In this document: positions 14,741 to 27,131 of the stretch, in pieces | Layout of the letters: each line of letters starts with the position of its first letter | How positions within the stretch are numbered: the stretch's first letter is position 1 | Virus record (IMG/VR): IMGVR_UViG_3300029448_000245 | Span: 1 to 30,724 of that record | Source: a virus | DNA length: 30,724 nt | Strand: one strand, 5' to 3' | Notes under the pieces: model-generated | The model's input: only the letters and a program-made list of their open reading frames with translations | What the model was told of the DNA's origin: nothing | The model's database searches: none | Translations under genes and position numbers: made by a program

Positions 14741-15643
14741 TTATATGTTCCAATCAGGATTTGTTGGAATCCAAGTATGGCGGCATCTATATCCCCCTCT
14801 AACTATAAAAGGGTCTCCAGAACTTTTGCCAGCCCATGACTGAGAGTTCCATCTATCCCGAATTTCTTTTTCGGTTAAAGTTTTGTTTACCATATCTCGG
14901 CAAAAAGGTCTAGAATCTCTTACGAGAGTTCCAGTATATCTAAAATGATTTAAACCACTGTCTTTTGCTTTTTTTACTGTAAATTGACCATGAAACTGCA
15001 TTATTGAGTCATGTGCTAGTTGGCCAGCATATTTTCTTAAATTTTCTCCAGCCCTATCGGCGGCGTATTGTGTTCTAAGTTTAATTATGCTTTCTTCAAC
15101 TTTAGATTTTAAACTTGGGTTGTATTTATTTTCATTAATATAATCAACCAATTCGTTTATTTCTCTCTGGTTTGACTGCTGATATACGCCGTTAATGTGT
15201 GATCTTATATTCTTTTCTACATCAGCAAAGGGTCTGCCAACTATGGTACTTTGATAAACCTCGTCATTTATTACTTTAAGAAACCTCTCAGCTATATCTT
15301 CGAACCCACTGAAAGATTGATATTTAAGTGCATTGATAGTTTGTAAATCTATTTGTGTTAAATTTTTAAATTTTGCGGGTATAGGCATTTTGCCGAAAGT
15401 ATCTAAAACCTCTTTCGCTATTAAGTTGTACTCAGAGTTTATAAGTAAGTCAGCCTCTTCTAAAAATGTACTTTCAATAATAGATCGTAGTTCAGGTTGT
15501 AGTTGTATAGCTAATCTTGTTGAAACTAACTCGCCACCCGTTGTTTTACGAACAGCGGTAATAACATCTTCCTCTAGTTTATAGAGAACATTGATGATTC
15601 GTTCTTCGTGTTGATCTGCAAGTTTATCTAATATTGCACTCAT
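14741..15643 (-). CDS. Mu gpF-like minor head protein (300 aa)
   Basis: The N-terminal two-thirds are helical. The C-terminal third is the MuF-type domain: RTQYAADRAGENLRKYAGQLAHDSIMQFHGQFTVKKAKDSGLNHFRYTGTLVRDSRPFCRDMVNKTL, then RGGYRCRHTW, with paired Cys/His residues (C in FCRDM and C in YRCRH). MuF proteins are packaged in the head or near the portal and are often ejected with DNA. It overlaps the gene before in ATGA. Located between three small basic proteins and the scaffold. Good match in architecture and motif. Confidence 0.8.
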   Translation of the reverse strand: MSAILDKLADQHEERIINVLYKLEEDVITAVRKTTGGELVSTRLAIQLQPELRSIIESTFLEEADLLINSEYNLIAKEVLDTFGKMPIPAKFKNLTQIDLQTINALKYQSFSGFEDIAERFLKVINDEVYQSTIVGRPFADVEKNIRSHINGVYQQSNQREINELVDYINENKYNPSLKSKVEESIIKLRTQYAADRAGENLRKYAGQLAHDSIMQFHGQFTVKKAKDSGLNHFRYTGTLVRDSRPFCRDMVNKTLTEKEIRDRWNSQSWAGKSSGDPFIVRGGYRCRHTWIPTNPDWNI

Positions 15644-15915
15644 TTTATACTGTTACGCCATGAATAGAGAGACCAATATGCTGGCGATAATGTTTTTTGG
15701 CCTTTTACCTTTTTTAAAACTCCGCCCATACGAGCCATGAAACTACGCTTTCTAGCTGGTATATTAGATTTGATTGACATTGATTTATCTCCAAACCTAA
15801 TTTTTTTTACATTTTGTGTTTTTCTATCTCTGACATAAACAGCAAACTTTTTACTTTGACTTGGTGTTCTAAATGGCTTTCCCAGCTTGACTGTCTTACC
15901 CTGATACTTAGCCAT
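15640..15915 (-). CDS. Small basic protein, KFAVYVRD...KKIRFGD family (91 aa)
   Basis: A beta-type core SKKFAVYVRDRKTQNVKKIRFGDKSM is followed by KSNIPARKRSFMARMGGVLKKV and TLSPAYWSLYSWRN. Proteins with 'VYVxDxxTGNVKKVxFGD...RKSFxARH...ARYWSCxxW' are widespread in marine phages, and often end in a Cys-containing motif; here the paired Cys are replaced (ARMGG, YWSLYSW), so a metal site, if any, is lost. The function of the family is unknown; position between portal and MuF suggests a head-associated or DNA-binding protein. Confidence 0.65.
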   Translation of the reverse strand: MAKYQGKTVKLGKPFRTPSQSKKFAVYVRDRKTQNVKKIRFGDKSMSIKSNIPARKRSFMARMGGVLKKVKGQKTLSPAYWSLYSWRNSIK

Positions 15916-16184
15916 TATTTTCTTCTTCGTTTTCTTTTACTTGCTCTTAAAATAATATCTCTATCAAATGTTCCTGATCTTCCTCTACTAATTAGTTTAT
16001 TAACTCTGGCCATTGACCACTGAGCCATACCAATACGAGGCCTCGACCCCGAGGATAAAAACGCCCCTTGGCCTCTCCTATACGAGGCTTTTAAGTCTGC
16101 AAGATTAAATAATTTAGATTTTTTTGCTTTTGTTTTTAAAGTTCTAACTGTGCTTGCTGAAAGTGCTTTTCTTTTGACTGCCAT
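15915..16184 (-). CDS. Small basic protein, YRRGxGAF...AxARVN family (89 aa)
   Basis: The core FNLADLKASYRRGQGAFLSSGSRPRIGMAQWSMARVNKLISRG resembles a phage element of the type 'YxRGxGAFxxSxRPxxxxxxWAxARVNxFL', which I recall from DUF5824-like regions of other marine phages. Both flanks are Lys/Arg-rich, and the C-terminus ends RKRRRK. The gene is coupled by TAATG on both sides. It pairs with the 91-aa protein, and similar elements occur together in other phages, so the two may work as a unit. Function not known. Confidence 0.6.
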   Translation of the reverse strand: MAVKRKALSASTVRTLKTKAKKSKLFNLADLKASYRRGQGAFLSSGSRPRIGMAQWSMARVNKLISRGRSGTFDRDIILRASKRKRRRK

Positions 16185-16372
16185 TATTTTACTCTTGCTT
16201 TAAACATTGATTTTGGAATAAAACCACCAGATTTATACAATGATGACATTGATTTTAACAAACTAGCTCTACTACCTCTTTTTCTTCCACGCAATCCCGA
16301 CAAATACTTTTTAGGTAAATCAGTATCTTTATCTTTTGGTACTTTTCTAACTCGTTTCTTCTTCTTGGCCAT
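16184..16372 (-). CDS. Small Lys/Arg-rich protein overlapping the portal gene end (62 aa)
   Basis: The ATG at 16372-16370 begins MAKKKKRVRKVPKDKDTDLPKKYLSGLRGRKRGSRASLLKSM. A longer frame to 16441 exists but runs inside the portal gene without a suitable start. This start lies 26 bases inside the portal gene end, after AGGGACAG. The DxDLPKKYLSGL segment looks like a conserved core. It is the first of three very basic proteins between portal and MuF genes and is probably virion associated or DNA binding. Function not known. Confidence 0.6.
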   Translation of the reverse strand: MAKKKKRVRKVPKDKDTDLPKKYLSGLRGRKRGSRASLLKSMSSLYKSGGFIPKSMFKARVK

Positions 16373-17777
16373 CTGGAGTCTGTCCCTCAATTTCAGTTGT
16401 CGTAAATTGTCCTCTAGTAGTTCTGGTGCTATCAATCTCATCGTTAATTGTTTTTATCATTTCATTATCATCAATAACTGCCTCTGCTATTTGTTTATCT
16501 AATTCTTTGTTAAATGTTTCTGATTTTATTCCACTAGCTTTTGCCATCTGTAAGAATTGTAAATCATTAGCCCAGTCTCTAACATCAAATGTATCAGGGT
16601 AATCTACTGAGCCGTCCCATTCTTTGTCTTGCCATAACGCAAACAAATCCCAAATCTGCTCTTCCGCATTTTCTAAATAATCTGCTTTCTCTGATAGTCT
16701 TGCATTCAATAATTGAAACTCTGTTTGTAACGCAATACCACTAGAGATTTGATTTCCTGATGTACCTCTAACTGAACCCATGTGAGTAATACGATCTATT
16801 GCATCAATTTTATTTTGAATACATTTCATAATACCCTCTAAGTTTTGGCCACTAGGTTGAATGATGTAAGGTTTAAGATCAGCTTGCATATCCTCTGGTA
16901 TTTCTATGATAGAACCAGCACCAGCACTAGCCTCAACATTTGGAGTCTTAACAAGACTTGGGTGGTTAGCTAATCTTATTAATTGTTCTTTCTCTGAATA
17001 GTCGTTGTAAATACTTTGTTGTAAATAAGCGACATCTGCAAGATCGCTAATACCTATTGGTCGTTTACCACCTTTTAAATTATAAACATTAATACATGGT
17101 ATTTTACCAATAGCATTTGGCACTTGCTCAATGATCTTTACATCGCCCTCTGCATATTCTTTTTCATAATCAGTAACATGGTAAGTAGTAATCTCTTCTT
17201 CGGTAAATAATTTTAATACTGCTCTTTCAGAATTAATATCTTCTACAACTAAAAGCATATCTAAATAGAACCTACCACTTGCGGCTCTACTATAATTCCA
17301 GTTTACAATATTCTCTGGTGTATAGATCGACATATAAGGTCTGATGTCTTGATCTAGTTCCTCTGCTCTAGTTCTTGAATTGGTTTGTGGTTTATCAATG
17401 ATAACCCAACAGTTCCCGTAGATGCTGGCGTTCATCTGCACCTCTCTCATAATAGTATTAAATGATCTGCCATCTAAGTCTGCATCATTAACAAAAGACT
17501 CTAAAGCTGGGTCTCCACTTAGAGAACCATAGTCTCTAGTTGGTGGTACTCTCCATAAAAAACTTGTATAGATTTGAACTACATTTTTGCAGTGATTATC
17601 AACGGGTGTATGTCTAACTCTTTGATCGTATTCCTCTGGAGTCTCTAAGATATATCTGTGTAGGTAATAACCATTTTTATAATCATTTCCTCCAAGATAA
17701 CTACGAATATAAAACTCCCAGTTCTGAATATTAGCGTGCCAGAGTGGGTGCTTTGTTGTTAAAAATTTTCTGTCCAT
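16347..17777 (-). CDS. Portal protein (476 aa)
   Basis: The protein carries portal features in order: DRKFLTTKHPLWHANIQNWEFYIRSYLGG, CKNVVQIYTSFLWRVPP, a GNCWVIIDKP strand, IYTPENIVNWNY, the wing strands LLVVEDINSERAVLKLF, then the crown/stem helix region with AYLQQSIYNDYSEKEQLIRLANHPSLV and SSGIALQTEFQLLNARLSEKADYLENAEEQIWDLFA. It resembles SPP1 gp6/DUF4055-type portals. A GTG start at 17786 is possible, but the ATG at 17777 in TGATG overlap with the TerL stop is better supported. It forms the dodecameric DNA gate. Confidence 0.88.
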   Translation of the reverse strand: MDRKFLTTKHPLWHANIQNWEFYIRSYLGGNDYKNGYYLHRYILETPEEYDQRVRHTPVDNHCKNVVQIYTSFLWRVPPTRDYGSLSGDPALESFVNDADLDGRSFNTIMREVQMNASIYGNCWVIIDKPQTNSRTRAEELDQDIRPYMSIYTPENIVNWNYSRAASGRFYLDMLLVVEDINSERAVLKLFTEEEITTYHVTDYEKEYAEGDVKIIEQVPNAIGKIPCINVYNLKGGKRPIGISDLADVAYLQQSIYNDYSEKEQLIRLANHPSLVKTPNVEASAGAGSIIEIPEDMQADLKPYIIQPSGQNLEGIMKCIQNKIDAIDRITHMGSVRGTSGNQISSGIALQTEFQLLNARLSEKADYLENAEEQIWDLFALWQDKEWDGSVDYPDTFDVRDWANDLQFLQMAKASGIKSETFNKELDKQIAEAVIDDNEMIKTINDEIDSTRTTRGQFTTTEIEGQTPDGQEEETS

Positions 17778-23734: not shown

Positions 23735-23995
23735 ATGAGTAAACCTGATAAAGAATATTTTAACATATCAGATCAACAAATCGCAGAAATGGAAGATGGT
23801 CTTGATATGGATAAAATGCGGGCTTTTGATAAACATAATGAAGATGTTAAGATCATGGAACTAACAAAAACTGGTCTTGAACTTTATATCAAAAGGTTTG
23901 GCAAAGAGAGCAATATCTATCAACAATGTAAAAATCTTATAGTGGAACTTGATAACAATATCGAGCATACTGAGAAATATAAGGATTTACTATGA
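23735..23995 (+). CDS. Small early protein, unknown (86 aa)
   Basis: Acidic and helical: DKEYFNISDQQIAEMEDGLDMDKMRAF, then MELTKTGLELYIKRFGKESNIYQQCKNLIVELDNNIEH. It begins 2 bases after the HTH gene and its stop overlaps the exonuclease start (ATGA at 23992-23995), so all three are probably made together. It may be a partner of the exonuclease, but no family is recognised. Confidence 0.55.
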   Translation: MSKPDKEYFNISDQQIAEMEDGLDMDKMRAFDKHNEDVKIMELTKTGLELYIKRFGKESNIYQQCKNLIVELDNNIEHTEKYKDLL

Positions 23996-24777
23996 TAGAT
24001 TATTTTAAAAAATTTGATGAGGGCGATAAAACTTTATTGCCCTTATCGTTTAGTCATATCAACGAGTTTGCATTTAACAGATCACGATGGGCATTAAGGC
24101 GTATCTTTGGATATCAGTTTGCATCATCGGCGGCGGCAGAACGAGGTAAAGCTGTCGAGTCTGGTCTTAATATGTGGCTCAATGGAATAGACTATGAGGA
24201 GGCAGTCGATAAGATGTATGATGAGTTTAACGCTAACTGTGCTTTGTTCAATGACCTAAAGACTGACGAGGAACGAGATAATTTAATTCCTTTGTTTGGC
24301 GAGGGCGTTAGAGCATTCAAAGAGTTTGGTTTTAAATGGAATCTTTTAGGATATCAAAAGAAAGTAGAATTAAATATTCATGGTGTACCGCTGATCGGAT
24401 ATACCGACTTTCATTTTGAAGATAAACAAACCAAAGAGGATTTCTTTATCGATCTTAAAACAACCAAGCGTAAACCTAGCGGCTTATCTATGTCTCATGC
24501 TATGCAACAATCTATCTATCAAAGAGGCACTAACGCAAATCAGAGGCTTTGGTATCTGATAGCAAATAAAAGTGGTGCTAAGTTTGAGAGTATGAGCCTA
24601 ACTGATTATGATAAGCCTATGAAAATATGTGAGCATATCGTTTCAGCTATGGCCAATTACTTAAAATCGGTTGATACCCTAGATGATGTTAAAAATACTC
24701 TGATACCTAACCCAGATGACTGGATTTGGAAAGAGGAGGCCGTTTTAAAGGCAAGACAAGAGGTTTGGGGCTACTAA
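23992..24777 (+). CDS. PD-(D/E)XK nuclease, RecB/Cas4-like exonuclease (261 aa)
   Basis: Residue motifs fit the PDDEXK_1 superfamily: SFSHINEFAFNRSRWALRRIFG near the start, RGKAVESGLNMWL (E57), then GVPLIGYTDFHF (D139), FFIDLKTTKRKP (D154, K156) and a MQQSIYQRG helix (Q172, Y176). Such phage exonucleases degrade one strand for recombination or process replication intermediates. It closes the early operon and overlaps the last leftward ORF by 4 bases tail-to-tail. No recognisable RecT/Erf partner is present; the 153-aa putative OB-fold protein is a candidate. Confidence 0.85.
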   Translation: MIDYFKKFDEGDKTLLPLSFSHINEFAFNRSRWALRRIFGYQFASSAAAERGKAVESGLNMWLNGIDYEEAVDKMYDEFNANCALFNDLKTDEERDNLIPLFGEGVRAFKEFGFKWNLLGYQKKVELNIHGVPLIGYTDFHFEDKQTKEDFFIDLKTTKRKPSGLSMSHAMQQSIYQRGTNANQRLWYLIANKSGAKFESMSLTDYDKPMKICEHIVSAMANYLKSVDTLDDVKNTLIPNPDDWIWKEEAVLKARQEVWGY

Positions 24778-24923
24778 GTAGCTTTAGACCTTAATAGTCG
24801 CTGAGAGGCCTTTAAATTGCGATTCTGGGGTGCTCTAAGAGTAATCTTAACCCGTCTTTTGCGATTTATGGGCCTTTTGTTAATTAACTCTGAAATTGTA
24901 GAGGTTGTTGTAAATCCACTCAT
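24774..24923 (-). CDS. Tiny Arg/Lys-rich protein, last of the leftward transcript (49 aa)
   Basis: ATG at 24923 overlaps the stop of the ORF before in ATGA. The product runs MSGFTTTSTISELINKRPINR and then a strongly basic part (KRRVKITLRAPQNRNLKA...LLRSKAT). The stop TAG overlaps the exonuclease stop by 4 bases on the opposite strand. Coupled start and close packing support it, but short length limits confidence. Nucleic-acid binding is plausible from the charge alone. Confidence 0.45.
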   Translation of the reverse strand: MSGFTTTSTISELINKRPINRKRRVKITLRAPQNRNLKASQRLLRSKAT

Positions 24924-25024
24924 TTTTTCTTTTTCTTTTTATGAGCAGAGTTTTTCATCAACCGCCCATCAGGCATATAGTGATACCCTCTAGGCGGTTT
25001 TTTTCTTTGTTTCTTTTTTGCCAC
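24920..25024 (-). CDS. Tiny Lys-rich protein with RGYHYMPDGRLM core (34 aa, GTG start)
   Basis: The GTG at 25024 overlaps the previous stop in TAGTG. A core PPRGYHYMPDGRLMKNSAH is flanked by Lys runs on both sides. A very similar 'RGYHxMPDGRLMK' core recurs in small phage proteins as I recall, which makes this a real gene rather than chance. It lies across the putative early terminator in antisense. Function unknown. Confidence 0.55.
   Translation of the reverse strand: MAKKKQRKKPPRGYHYMPDGRLMKNSAHKKKKKK
24960..25004 (+). terminator. Putative rho-independent terminator for the early operon
   Basis: On the plus strand AACCGCC (24960-24966) and GGCGGTT (24993-24999) form a 7-bp stem with a 26-base loop that itself can hold ATCA/TGAT, followed by a run of T up to 25004. 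It lies 183 bases past the exonuclease stop, inside a tiny leftward ORF. This is the only T-tract hairpin seen after the early genes. Confidence 0.5.
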
Positions 25025-25128
25025 TATTTTTTTTTCTTCTTCTTTTTTGGTCTAGTCATTTTTGACATTTTAGACATCTTTGATTTCTTCATGCCTCTTC
25101 GACCAGAGTTTCCGTAATGACTTGGCAT
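25024..25128 (-). CDS. Tiny Lys-rich protein (34 aa)
   Basis: Starts MPSHYGNSGRRGMKKSKMSK, with three repeats of a KMS-like unit, and ends in seven Lys. The ATG is preceded by GGGGAAATAAA. The stop overlaps the next start by one base. Small proteins starting MPxHYG and ending in Lys are familiar from other marine phages. Function unknown. Confidence 0.5.
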   Translation of the reverse strand: MPSHYGNSGRRGMKKSKMSKMSKMTRPKKKKKKK

Positions 25129-25129
25129 T

Positions 25130-25237
25130 TTATTTCCCCTTTTTTTGTTTTTTCAAAATTGCCATCTGTAACGCTTTAGGCAACTTTTTCTGTTTCGTGG
25201 TCAAACCACCAACCATTTTTTTTTTCTTCTTAGCCAT
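25130..25237 (-). CDS. Tiny Lys-rich protein (35 aa)
   Basis: MAKKKKKMVGGLTTKQKKLPKALQ followed by MAILKKQKKGK. The ATG is three bases after the stop of the TM protein and the stop is one base before the next ATG. LPKALQMAIL is a possible short helix. The MAKK-start recurs in several small genes of this genome. Function unknown. Confidence 0.5.
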   Translation of the reverse strand: MAKKKKKMVGGLTTKQKKLPKALQMAILKKQKKGK

Positions 25238-25240
25238 GAT

Positions 25241-25369
25241 CTAATGAAGAATATAGTTGTGAGCCGCTACAATCACTGCAACAGCTATTATGATTTGCAC
25301 CCAAGATTTCATTTCTGTGAATGCGTGCCACCATTTAGTAACTTGTTGTTCAATTTTCTTTTTGACCAT
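25241..25369 (-). CDS. Single-TM mini protein after the holin (42 aa)
   Basis: The N-terminal half is basic/amphipathic (MVKKKIEQQVTKWWHAFTEM), and WVQIIIAVAVIVAAHNYI is a transmembrane helix. It starts 3 bases after the 3TM holin gene. It could be a second holin-like or an antiholin component. A small membrane protein at this place is probable, but its class is unknown. Confidence 0.55.
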   Translation of the reverse strand: MVKKKIEQQVTKWWHAFTEMKSWVQIIIAVAVIVAAHNYILH

Positions 25370-25372
25370 AAA

Positions 25373-25804
25373 TTACTCCTTTCCCTTATCGGTGTTGATT
25401 TTCTTGAGTTTCTCAAACGATCTTATACCCGACATACCCAAGAGTGCCATTACTAGGGGCATAAGTGTTCCCATGTCCATCTGAGGTATATTTTGAACCT
25501 CATACTGGAATAAGCCGCAAATAAATAAAATAAATTTTGATAATACATATTCCCAGAATATTGCTAAAGCACAGGACATACCAATCAAAGGCCGCCATGC
25601 TCTTTGTAAAAATCCACTAATTCCACCAGCTTGACTCTTTGCATCTGCCAAGTTGATAGACATTTGTTTTTCTTTTAGTTTTGCCTCTATCTCAGCAAAT
25701 CTGTTTTTTAGTTGTAGTTTTTCCTCGTCACTAGTGTGTAAGTCATCAATAACTCCAGCAACAGCCTTTATAGTTCCACCACTTAATAATTTTCCTAAAA
25801 CCAT
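25373..25804 (-). CDS. Holin, GTA_holin_3TM family (143 aa)
   Basis: The pattern is an N-terminal VLGKLLSGGTIKAVAGVIDDLHTSDEEKLQLKNRFAEIEAKL amphipathic helix and then RAWRPLIGMSCALAIFWEYVL, a second hydrophobic span (FILFICGLFQYEV), and a third, MGTLMPLVMALLGMSGIRSFEKL. The 'RAWRP...MP...LLGMsgiRs.EK' signature is typical of the GTA_holin_3TM family next to GH24-type endolysins. It forms lesions in the inner membrane that release the endolysin. ATG after AGGAGACTTAAAA. Strong context: endolysin gene directly upstream. Confidence 0.85.
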   Translation of the reverse strand: MVLGKLLSGGTIKAVAGVIDDLHTSDEEKLQLKNRFAEIEAKLKEKQMSINLADAKSQAGGISGFLQRAWRPLIGMSCALAIFWEYVLSKFILFICGLFQYEVQNIPQMDMGTLMPLVMALLGMSGIRSFEKLKKINTDKGKE

Positions 25805-26758: not shown

Positions 26759-26991
26759 GTATTTTCAACTTTTAATACCATGCACTCAAATTTAATAACT
26801 AATTTTTCTTGTTCTATATAATCTTTTTCAAATTCTTCCATTTTTTCTAAACTACGAAAACTATTATAAGCCTGATTATATCCAGCAATCACACAGTCAT
26901 AATGGTTGTTAAATTGATAACCAGATATAGTATTTGAAAGACACTCGCCATTAACCATACTGCACATATGTAAAATTAAAATATATTTCAT
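26755..26991 (-). CDS. Small Cys-containing protein in the envelope cassette (78 aa)
   Basis: MKYILILHMCSMVNGECLSNTISGYQFNNHYDCVIAGYNQAYNSF is followed by a helical, charged MEEFEKDYIEQEKLVIKFECMVLKVENT. Four Cys (10, 17, 33, 70) suggest disulfides in the periplasm, but the hydrophobic start is short for a signal peptide. Short proteins with 'CSMxxGxC' at the start occur in other marine phages, in my recollection. Coupled by ATGA on both sides. Confidence 0.55.
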   Translation of the reverse strand: MKYILILHMCSMVNGECLSNTISGYQFNNHYDCVIAGYNQAYNSFRSLEKMEEFEKDYIEQEKLVIKFECMVLKVENT

Positions 26992-27131
26992 CTAATACTT
27001 TCATGTGGAGTCCAGCCGTATCTATCCCAATAATACTCGTAACAACTGGTATATTTGGTTTTATCGCACTGTGCTGGTTTGAATGATATGGCACAGCTAT
27101 TTAATAAAAGTAATAATATCAAATATCTCAT
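26988..27131 (-). CDS. Small lipoprotein, o-spanin candidate (47 aa)
   Basis: MRYLILLLLLNSCAIS gives a short signal with an L-N-S-C lipobox (C13), and a 35-residue mature part rich in aromatics and Cys (QCDKTKYTSCYEYYWDRYGW). It overlaps the coiled-coil membrane gene by ATGA and the next gene by ATGA. A small lipoprotein directly after an N-terminal-anchor coiled-coil protein is the arrangement of i-spanin/o-spanin pairs. It lacks the Pro-rich character of lambda Rz1. Confidence 0.6.
   Translation of the reverse strand: MRYLILLLLLNSCAISFKPAQCDKTKYTSCYEYYWDRYGWTPHESIR

Follow-up and report, generated by a model that had tools for sequence, protein, structure and literature searches.

In microviruses, the packaging protein J/VP8 uses one part to bind the capsid wall and a basic part to bind DNA (PMC11281519). 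The virion of the chlorovirus PBCV-1 contains basic proteins (A278L, A282L and others) that have been proposed to neutralise the packaged dsDNA, and phages are held to neutralise their DNA mostly by cations and polyamines rather than by basic proteins (PMC3281028). Other roles are known for small phage proteins, which often target the host (PMC11323111) and which include the disruptins, an accepted class of lysis protein (PMC12819732). Relatives of the genes reported here lie in the pelagiphages HTVC026P, HTVC202P, HTVC111P and HTVC112P. In the openly accessible literature we found no paper on lysine-rich pelagiphage proteins, nothing informative on DUF5872 or DUF5824 and none on DUF6496, and a cassette of this kind is not described there.

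The window analysed here, a stretch of 30,724 bp with 35% GC, is IMG/VR record IMGVR_UViG_3300029448_000245. It carries terminase, portal, tape measure and lambda-J-like tail genes, which identify it as a tailed phage, and its pelagiphage relatives point to a probable host in SAR11 or in a related group of marine alphaproteobacteria. The late genes lie on the minus strand and close with a row of five small ORFs behind the holin (a to e, Table 1), each found exactly where an earlier note on this DNA had placed it. ORF e is the final gene of the late operon, and its 3' end overlaps a convergent PD-(D/E)XK nuclease gene by 4 bp. No terminator was found downstream of ORF e, and promoter-like sites occur at chance frequency.

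Table 1. Positions of the small basic ORFs and of the lysis and border genes in the window.
Feature	Position	Strand	Remarks
h, small basic protein	15640..15915	-	homologue adjoins c and d1 in L101, and stands between d2 and the capsid gene on contigs from SAR11 single cells
g, DUF5824 small basic protein	15915..16184	-	Pfam PF19141, E=3.9e-6
f, small basic protein	16184..16441	-	VPKDKxTxLPKKYLSGL core; directly after portal
PD-(D/E)XK nuclease (also termed exonuclease)	23992..24777	+	convergent; border of the ORF a-e row
ORF e, 49 aa	24774..24923	-	core GFTTTxTISELIxKRP, basic tail
ORF d, type d1, 34 aa	24920..25024	-	GTG start; GYHYMPDGRLMKNSAH core between Lys-rich ends
ORF c, 34 aa	25024..25128	-	MPxHYG core, poly-Lys tail
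ORF b, 35 aa	25130..25237	-	core LTxKQKKLPxxLQxAI, Lys-rich ends; optional member
ORF a, 42 aa	25241..25369	-	basic N-terminus, one TM helix, C-terminus HN(Y/F/W)(I/L/V)LH
Holin, GTA_holin_3TM / phrog_3427	25373..25804	-	PF11351 and phrog match
Endolysin (phage lysozyme)	25807..26325	-	start codon uncertain
Candidate o-spanin, 47-aa lipoprotein	26988..27131	-	lipobox LNSC; inferred from sequence features
Candidate i-spanin, 164 aa	27128..27622	-	N-terminal TM, then long coiled coil; inferred from sequence features

The coupling of these ORFs by TAGTG, ATGA or gaps of at most three bases is likewise as described earlier: ORF a, preceded by the SD sequence AAAGGAG, begins 3 bp after the holin stop, 3 bp (TAG atc ATG) separate a from b and 1 bp separates b from c, c and d overlap by one base in TAGTG, and d and e overlap by four in ATGA. 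ORFs b to e encode proteins with a net charge of +12 to +15 and zero or one acidic residue each. The description of four ORFs as extremely rich in Lys and Arg holds for b (40% K+R), c (44%) and d (44%), but it overstates e, which at 27% is clearly lower; ORF a is indeed the one member with a TM helix, and its single-TM product has a net charge of +3. The next most basic genes in the window, with 27–32% K+R, belong to the same class as b to e and are those labelled f, g and h. A run of nine A residues stands ahead of the stop of c (AAAAAAAAATAGTG, window ~25035–25024, minus strand), with the -1 frame open into d. A programmed -1 frameshift from c to d at this run before TAGTG was considered and dropped because the run is missing from most relatives, which end in KR.

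To assess chance, the 600-bp region was shuffled 1000 times with its dinucleotide composition preserved; coupled rows of ORFs of 30 aa or longer reached a length of three in 7/1000 shuffles and more than three in none (0/1000), against the five observed. An IMG/VR search with the holin yielded 80 viral loci, among which a was recognised in 75/80, e in 63/80, d1 or d2, the two occupants of slot d described below, in 62/80 and b in 47/80; most loci without a given member lie on contigs that break off before it, and the others belong to lineages that truly have no b. Behind the holin these relatives keep the same order, offsets and junction types, and the check that the earlier note had proposed, on conserved starts and stops and on in-frame stops in close relatives, came out in favour of the row. 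Median dN/dS (NG86) is 0.15 for a, 0.056 for b, 0.115 and 0.094 for the c1 and c2 types of c, 0.074 for d1, 0.11 for d2 and 0.31 for e, with 0.11 for the holin as control, so that b and d1 have the lowest values in the row; codon position 3 takes 48–71% of the differences. All five ORFs are real conserved genes, as had been proposed: that they are spurious products of A-rich DNA, where AAA runs are stop-free in every frame, is refuted for all five by purifying selection (dN/dS 0.06–0.31), the conserved junctions and the shuffle result, and retains a negligible probability.

The five do not form a single set, as had been assumed, since ORF a tracks the GTA-type holin, which it accompanies in all holin subgroups, whereas b to e are modules that occur independently of the holin. 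The basic N-terminus, single TM helix and conserved HNYILH end of ORF a suggest that it is probably an inner-membrane partner of the holin, belonging to lysis rather than to the basic set; a tblastn search with ORF a against known phages gave no match. The holin itself matches PF11351 with 35.5 bits (cut-off 24.8) and phrog_3427 with E=1.8e-25. Upstream of the endolysin, the candidate o-spanin gene is ATGA-coupled to that of the candidate i-spanin, whose Pfam matches are of coiled-coil type only, and neither protein of the pair (27622–26988) matches a spanin family. Including this candidate pair the lysis set looks complete, leaving no obvious lysis step open.

No Pfam or PHROG model matches ORF b, c or e. 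Slot c alternates among c1 (MPxHYG), c2 (MPRGVGYG) and an AT-hook-like c3 (MPxGKGTYG..GRP), the GRP motif being present in 29/31 c3-type ORFs. The AT-hook core, (R)GRP with basic residues on either side, is absent from the window's own c, and the AT-hook-like GRP of the c3 occupants is the only direct hint of possible DNA binding. In some other phages b and c are fused. Rows of several small basic ORFs, in which c3 is fused to d2 or to b, also occur near larger packaging-like genes in other marine phages (L308 and L441 on the minus strand, L500 on the plus strand).

Slot d is occupied either by d1 (GYHYMPDGRLMK, 34 aa) or by d2, an unrelated helical protein of 60 aa (HARHHSLKHMRSM...; phrog_31838), and is exchanged cleanly between near-identical phages. 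The window and contig L002 are 97–99% identical in the holin, a, b, e and the nuclease end, with d1 in one and d2 in the other, and the same swap recurs between L054 and L050, whose surroundings are 96–98% identical. In 111 distinct rows, a sample gathered partly by d2 and e motifs, d1 was present in 15 and d2 in 91, never both together; the holin-based set alone gave 8 d1 versus 54 d2, again with no overlap.

The window's d conforms to the d1 core P-x-G-[YF]-H-x-M-P-[DN]-G-x-[LIV]-M-K, in which P10, G12, H14, M16, P17, G19, M22 and K23 are invariant across 23 sequences, and d1 matches phrog_30733 weakly (E=0.006). In an AF2 model, d1 has strands at residues 13–15 and 21–23 (pLDDT 87 at residues 11–20, 73.5 overall, pTM 0.32), which points, with modest confidence, to a possible small hairpin around MPDG. 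The model of d2 is helical with a pLDDT of 94; compared with PDB folds it gave no convincing match (all E above 1), and it has one short viral match (E=1e-3). Sequence searches of the PDB with d1, d2 and the baseplate wedge protein described below found nothing. A d2 alignment (L001:4778-4957) shows invariant His at 25, 28, 29, 33 and 51 and invariant Met at 34 and 37; residues 25/29/33/37 follow one another at i, i+4 along one helix or its edge, an arrangement that would suit metal binding. A host origin of d2 was examined and rejected, the SAR11 and other genome matches inspected all lying among phage genes.

The recurrence of the RGYHxMPDGRLMK and MPxHYG cores, which the earlier note had put forward, is borne out. 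The first is present in more than 120 IMG/VR stretches, these cores also recur in the four pelagiphages named above, and DNA-pattern scans with the d1, d2, e and b cores returned at least ~120 stretches each. The four pelagiphages resemble the window in having the same cores in largely the same order and the same d1/d2 alternation. They differ from it in that the small ORFs follow the endolysin and the holin-linked ORF a is absent, and in HTVC026P (b-c-d1) and HTVC111P (c-d2) the f and g families come directly after d, whereas in the window f, g and h lie between the portal and capsid genes (16441–15640, minus strand). In the deposited pelagiphage genomes b, c and most d1 ORFs are unannotated (L082, L083, L204 and L206 for HTVC202P, HTVC026P, HTVC111P and HTVC112P). 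The protein f, which has no Pfam match, may be DUF5872-like, and its true start is probably at ~16372. The match of g to PF19141 scores 27.5 bits, with a gathering score of 25. With f, g and h at the portal and b to e at the end of the late operon, this one phage carries two groups of basic genes.

Beyond such rows, the cores are found inside larger virion and assembly proteins. The b core lies in acidic linkers of three T4-like head scaffolding proteins (PF25623/phrog_237), d2 lies inside an XkdF-type prohead protease (L257), and d1 sits at the C-terminal end of a Mu-type portal (L140) and within wedge proteins of T4-like baseplates (L137 and others). Cyanophage P-HM2 has a gene between the terminase genes gp16 and gp17 that combines d1 with DUF6321, and d1 occurs twice alongside DUF5824 in L084. 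The families that co-occur with the cores, DUF5824 (PF19141), DUF6321 (PF19846), DUF6496 (PF20106), phrog_31838 and phrog_30733, are all small or modular basic viral families. ORFs b to e belong to a wide range of such small basic modules. A further short module, PCWxGYxxxGMKxxxGKxVPNCVP, recurrently accompanies d1 in phage proteins of L092, L084 and L150. A d1-type ORF at L172:6093-6230 adjoins a 620-aa protein without a Pfam match, on a contig that by our impression is possibly from a virus of eukaryotes.

On unrelated contigs, the neighbours of free-standing d1, d2 or b include the terminase large subunit (8), GroES (8), virion structural (8), head-tail adaptor (7), head assembly (6) and scaffold (5) proteins; holin (5) and endolysin (4) are also among them. 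As controls we took ORFs of these loci that lie 3 kb or more from the module genes; terminase and GroES are not among the 25 commonest control families, while capsid genes are present there too because late genes cluster, and as it rests on these 25 families the comparison indicates a tendency and gives no exact enrichment. In L101, c and d1 adjoin h with a scaffold-like gene nearby, and contigs from SAR11 single cells place d2 and h between what we take, by sequence recognition, to be scaffold-like and T7-like capsid genes.

The reading that we favour, tentatively and with a probability of about 0.4, is that b to e are late proteins of the head/packaging stage that work in the manner of phiX174 J, each with a docking core and a DNA-binding tail. 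Like phiX174 J and gokushovirus VP8, which are about 40 aa long, strongly basic and almost devoid of acidic residues, b to e are small (34–49 aa), similarly charged and built of a short core and a polycation. The likeness is one of analogy, with no sequence relation claimed: J/VP8 belongs to the ssDNA tailless Microviridae, whereas the window comes from a dsDNA tailed phage with several different cores. PBCV-1 differs as well, being a large eukaryotic virus with other proteins, whose virion location was established by proteomics.

On this reading b to e, together with f, g and h by the portal, would form a group of late cationic mini-proteins of the head/packaging stage, in which the conserved core of each would dock on a virion or assembly partner and the Lys/Arg tail would bind DNA. 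Located in or around the capsid, they might aid the uptake or neutralisation of packaged DNA. As different cores fit one slot, the set would be exchanged as cassettes. A 31-kb genome has ~62,000 phosphates, of which ~440 copies of a protein at +14 would neutralise 10%, a number similar in magnitude to the copies of capsid protein in a T=7 head. The fusions, the neighbours, f, g and h, the charge, the GRP of c3, purifying selection and the complete-looking lysis set all favour this head/packaging role. The wedge fusion, the presence of b in acidic scaffold linkers and the position of the row directly after the lysis genes fit it less well, which is why docking and disruptin alternatives are retained, and the prevailing view that phages neutralise their DNA by cations and polyamines (PMC3281028) lowers the prior for DNA condensation, a role that the earlier note had raised and that is one variant of this reading.

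The baseplate wedge is not a DNA-binding position, and d1 there, like b in acidic linkers, suggests that the cores may be general protein-binding motifs. On this basis b to e could be general docking peptides of assembly, whose cores bind capsid, scaffold, chaperone or portal and whose Lys tails serve solubility or contacts rather than DNA. The GroES, scaffold and adaptor neighbours suit such a role, as do the lowest dN/dS values, those of b and d1. It leaves unexplained, however, the long polycationic stretch on nearly every free-standing version and the AT-hook-like occupants of slot c, and we consider it possible but doubtful.

The position of the row, right after endolysin and holin here and after endolysin in pelagiphages, would also suit cationic peptides of the disruptin kind, which would breach the outer membrane once holin and endolysin have done their work. 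The phiKT disruptin gp28, whose gene sits between endolysin and holin, is similarly small, cationic and encoded beside these genes. It is, however, amphipathic (43% hydrophobic, moment 0.68, net +7), whereas c and d are 15–18% hydrophobic with moments of 0.30–0.41 and show no sizeable hydrophobic face of an amphipathic helix; b and e are intermediate, and d has no sequence similarity to gp28. A phage relying on a phiKT-type disruptin is expected to lack a spanin, whereas the window has a candidate i-/o-spanin pair, recognised by sequence features, upstream of the row. Many relatives of b to e, moreover, lie away from lysis genes, among head genes or inside head proteins, in keeping with the earlier view that lysis alone does not account for the row. 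A disruptin role is thus unlikely, and the basic proteins would more probably assist in DNA handling or head building than in lysis.

Host takeover or late control, in which the peptides would bind host nucleic acid, polymerase or ribosome and which the earlier note had left open, is compatible with their charge and with the frequency of host targeting among small phage proteins, but the genes close the late operon, show no early-gene association and have their relatives among or fused to head and packaging genes, so that this role found no support and is very unlikely.

The head/packaging reading has a bolder form, which we regard as unlikely, in which marine tailed phages would possess an exchangeable protamine-like kit of mini-proteins that enters the capsid with the dsDNA, slot exchange tuning packing or ejection; if true, it would run counter to the view that basic proteins take no part in DNA packing by tailed phages. 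The row is a conserved block at the ends of late operons that standard gene calling has overlooked, and its cores occur in very many marine viral contigs, mostly unannotated or labelled 'hypothetical', cultured pelagiphages included. As hosts and phages are in culture, the question is testable now. If the mini-proteins are packaged with the genome, they would represent protein-assisted DNA packing in tailed phages; if they are only assembly peptides, they would still constitute a new family of exchangeable assembly motifs.
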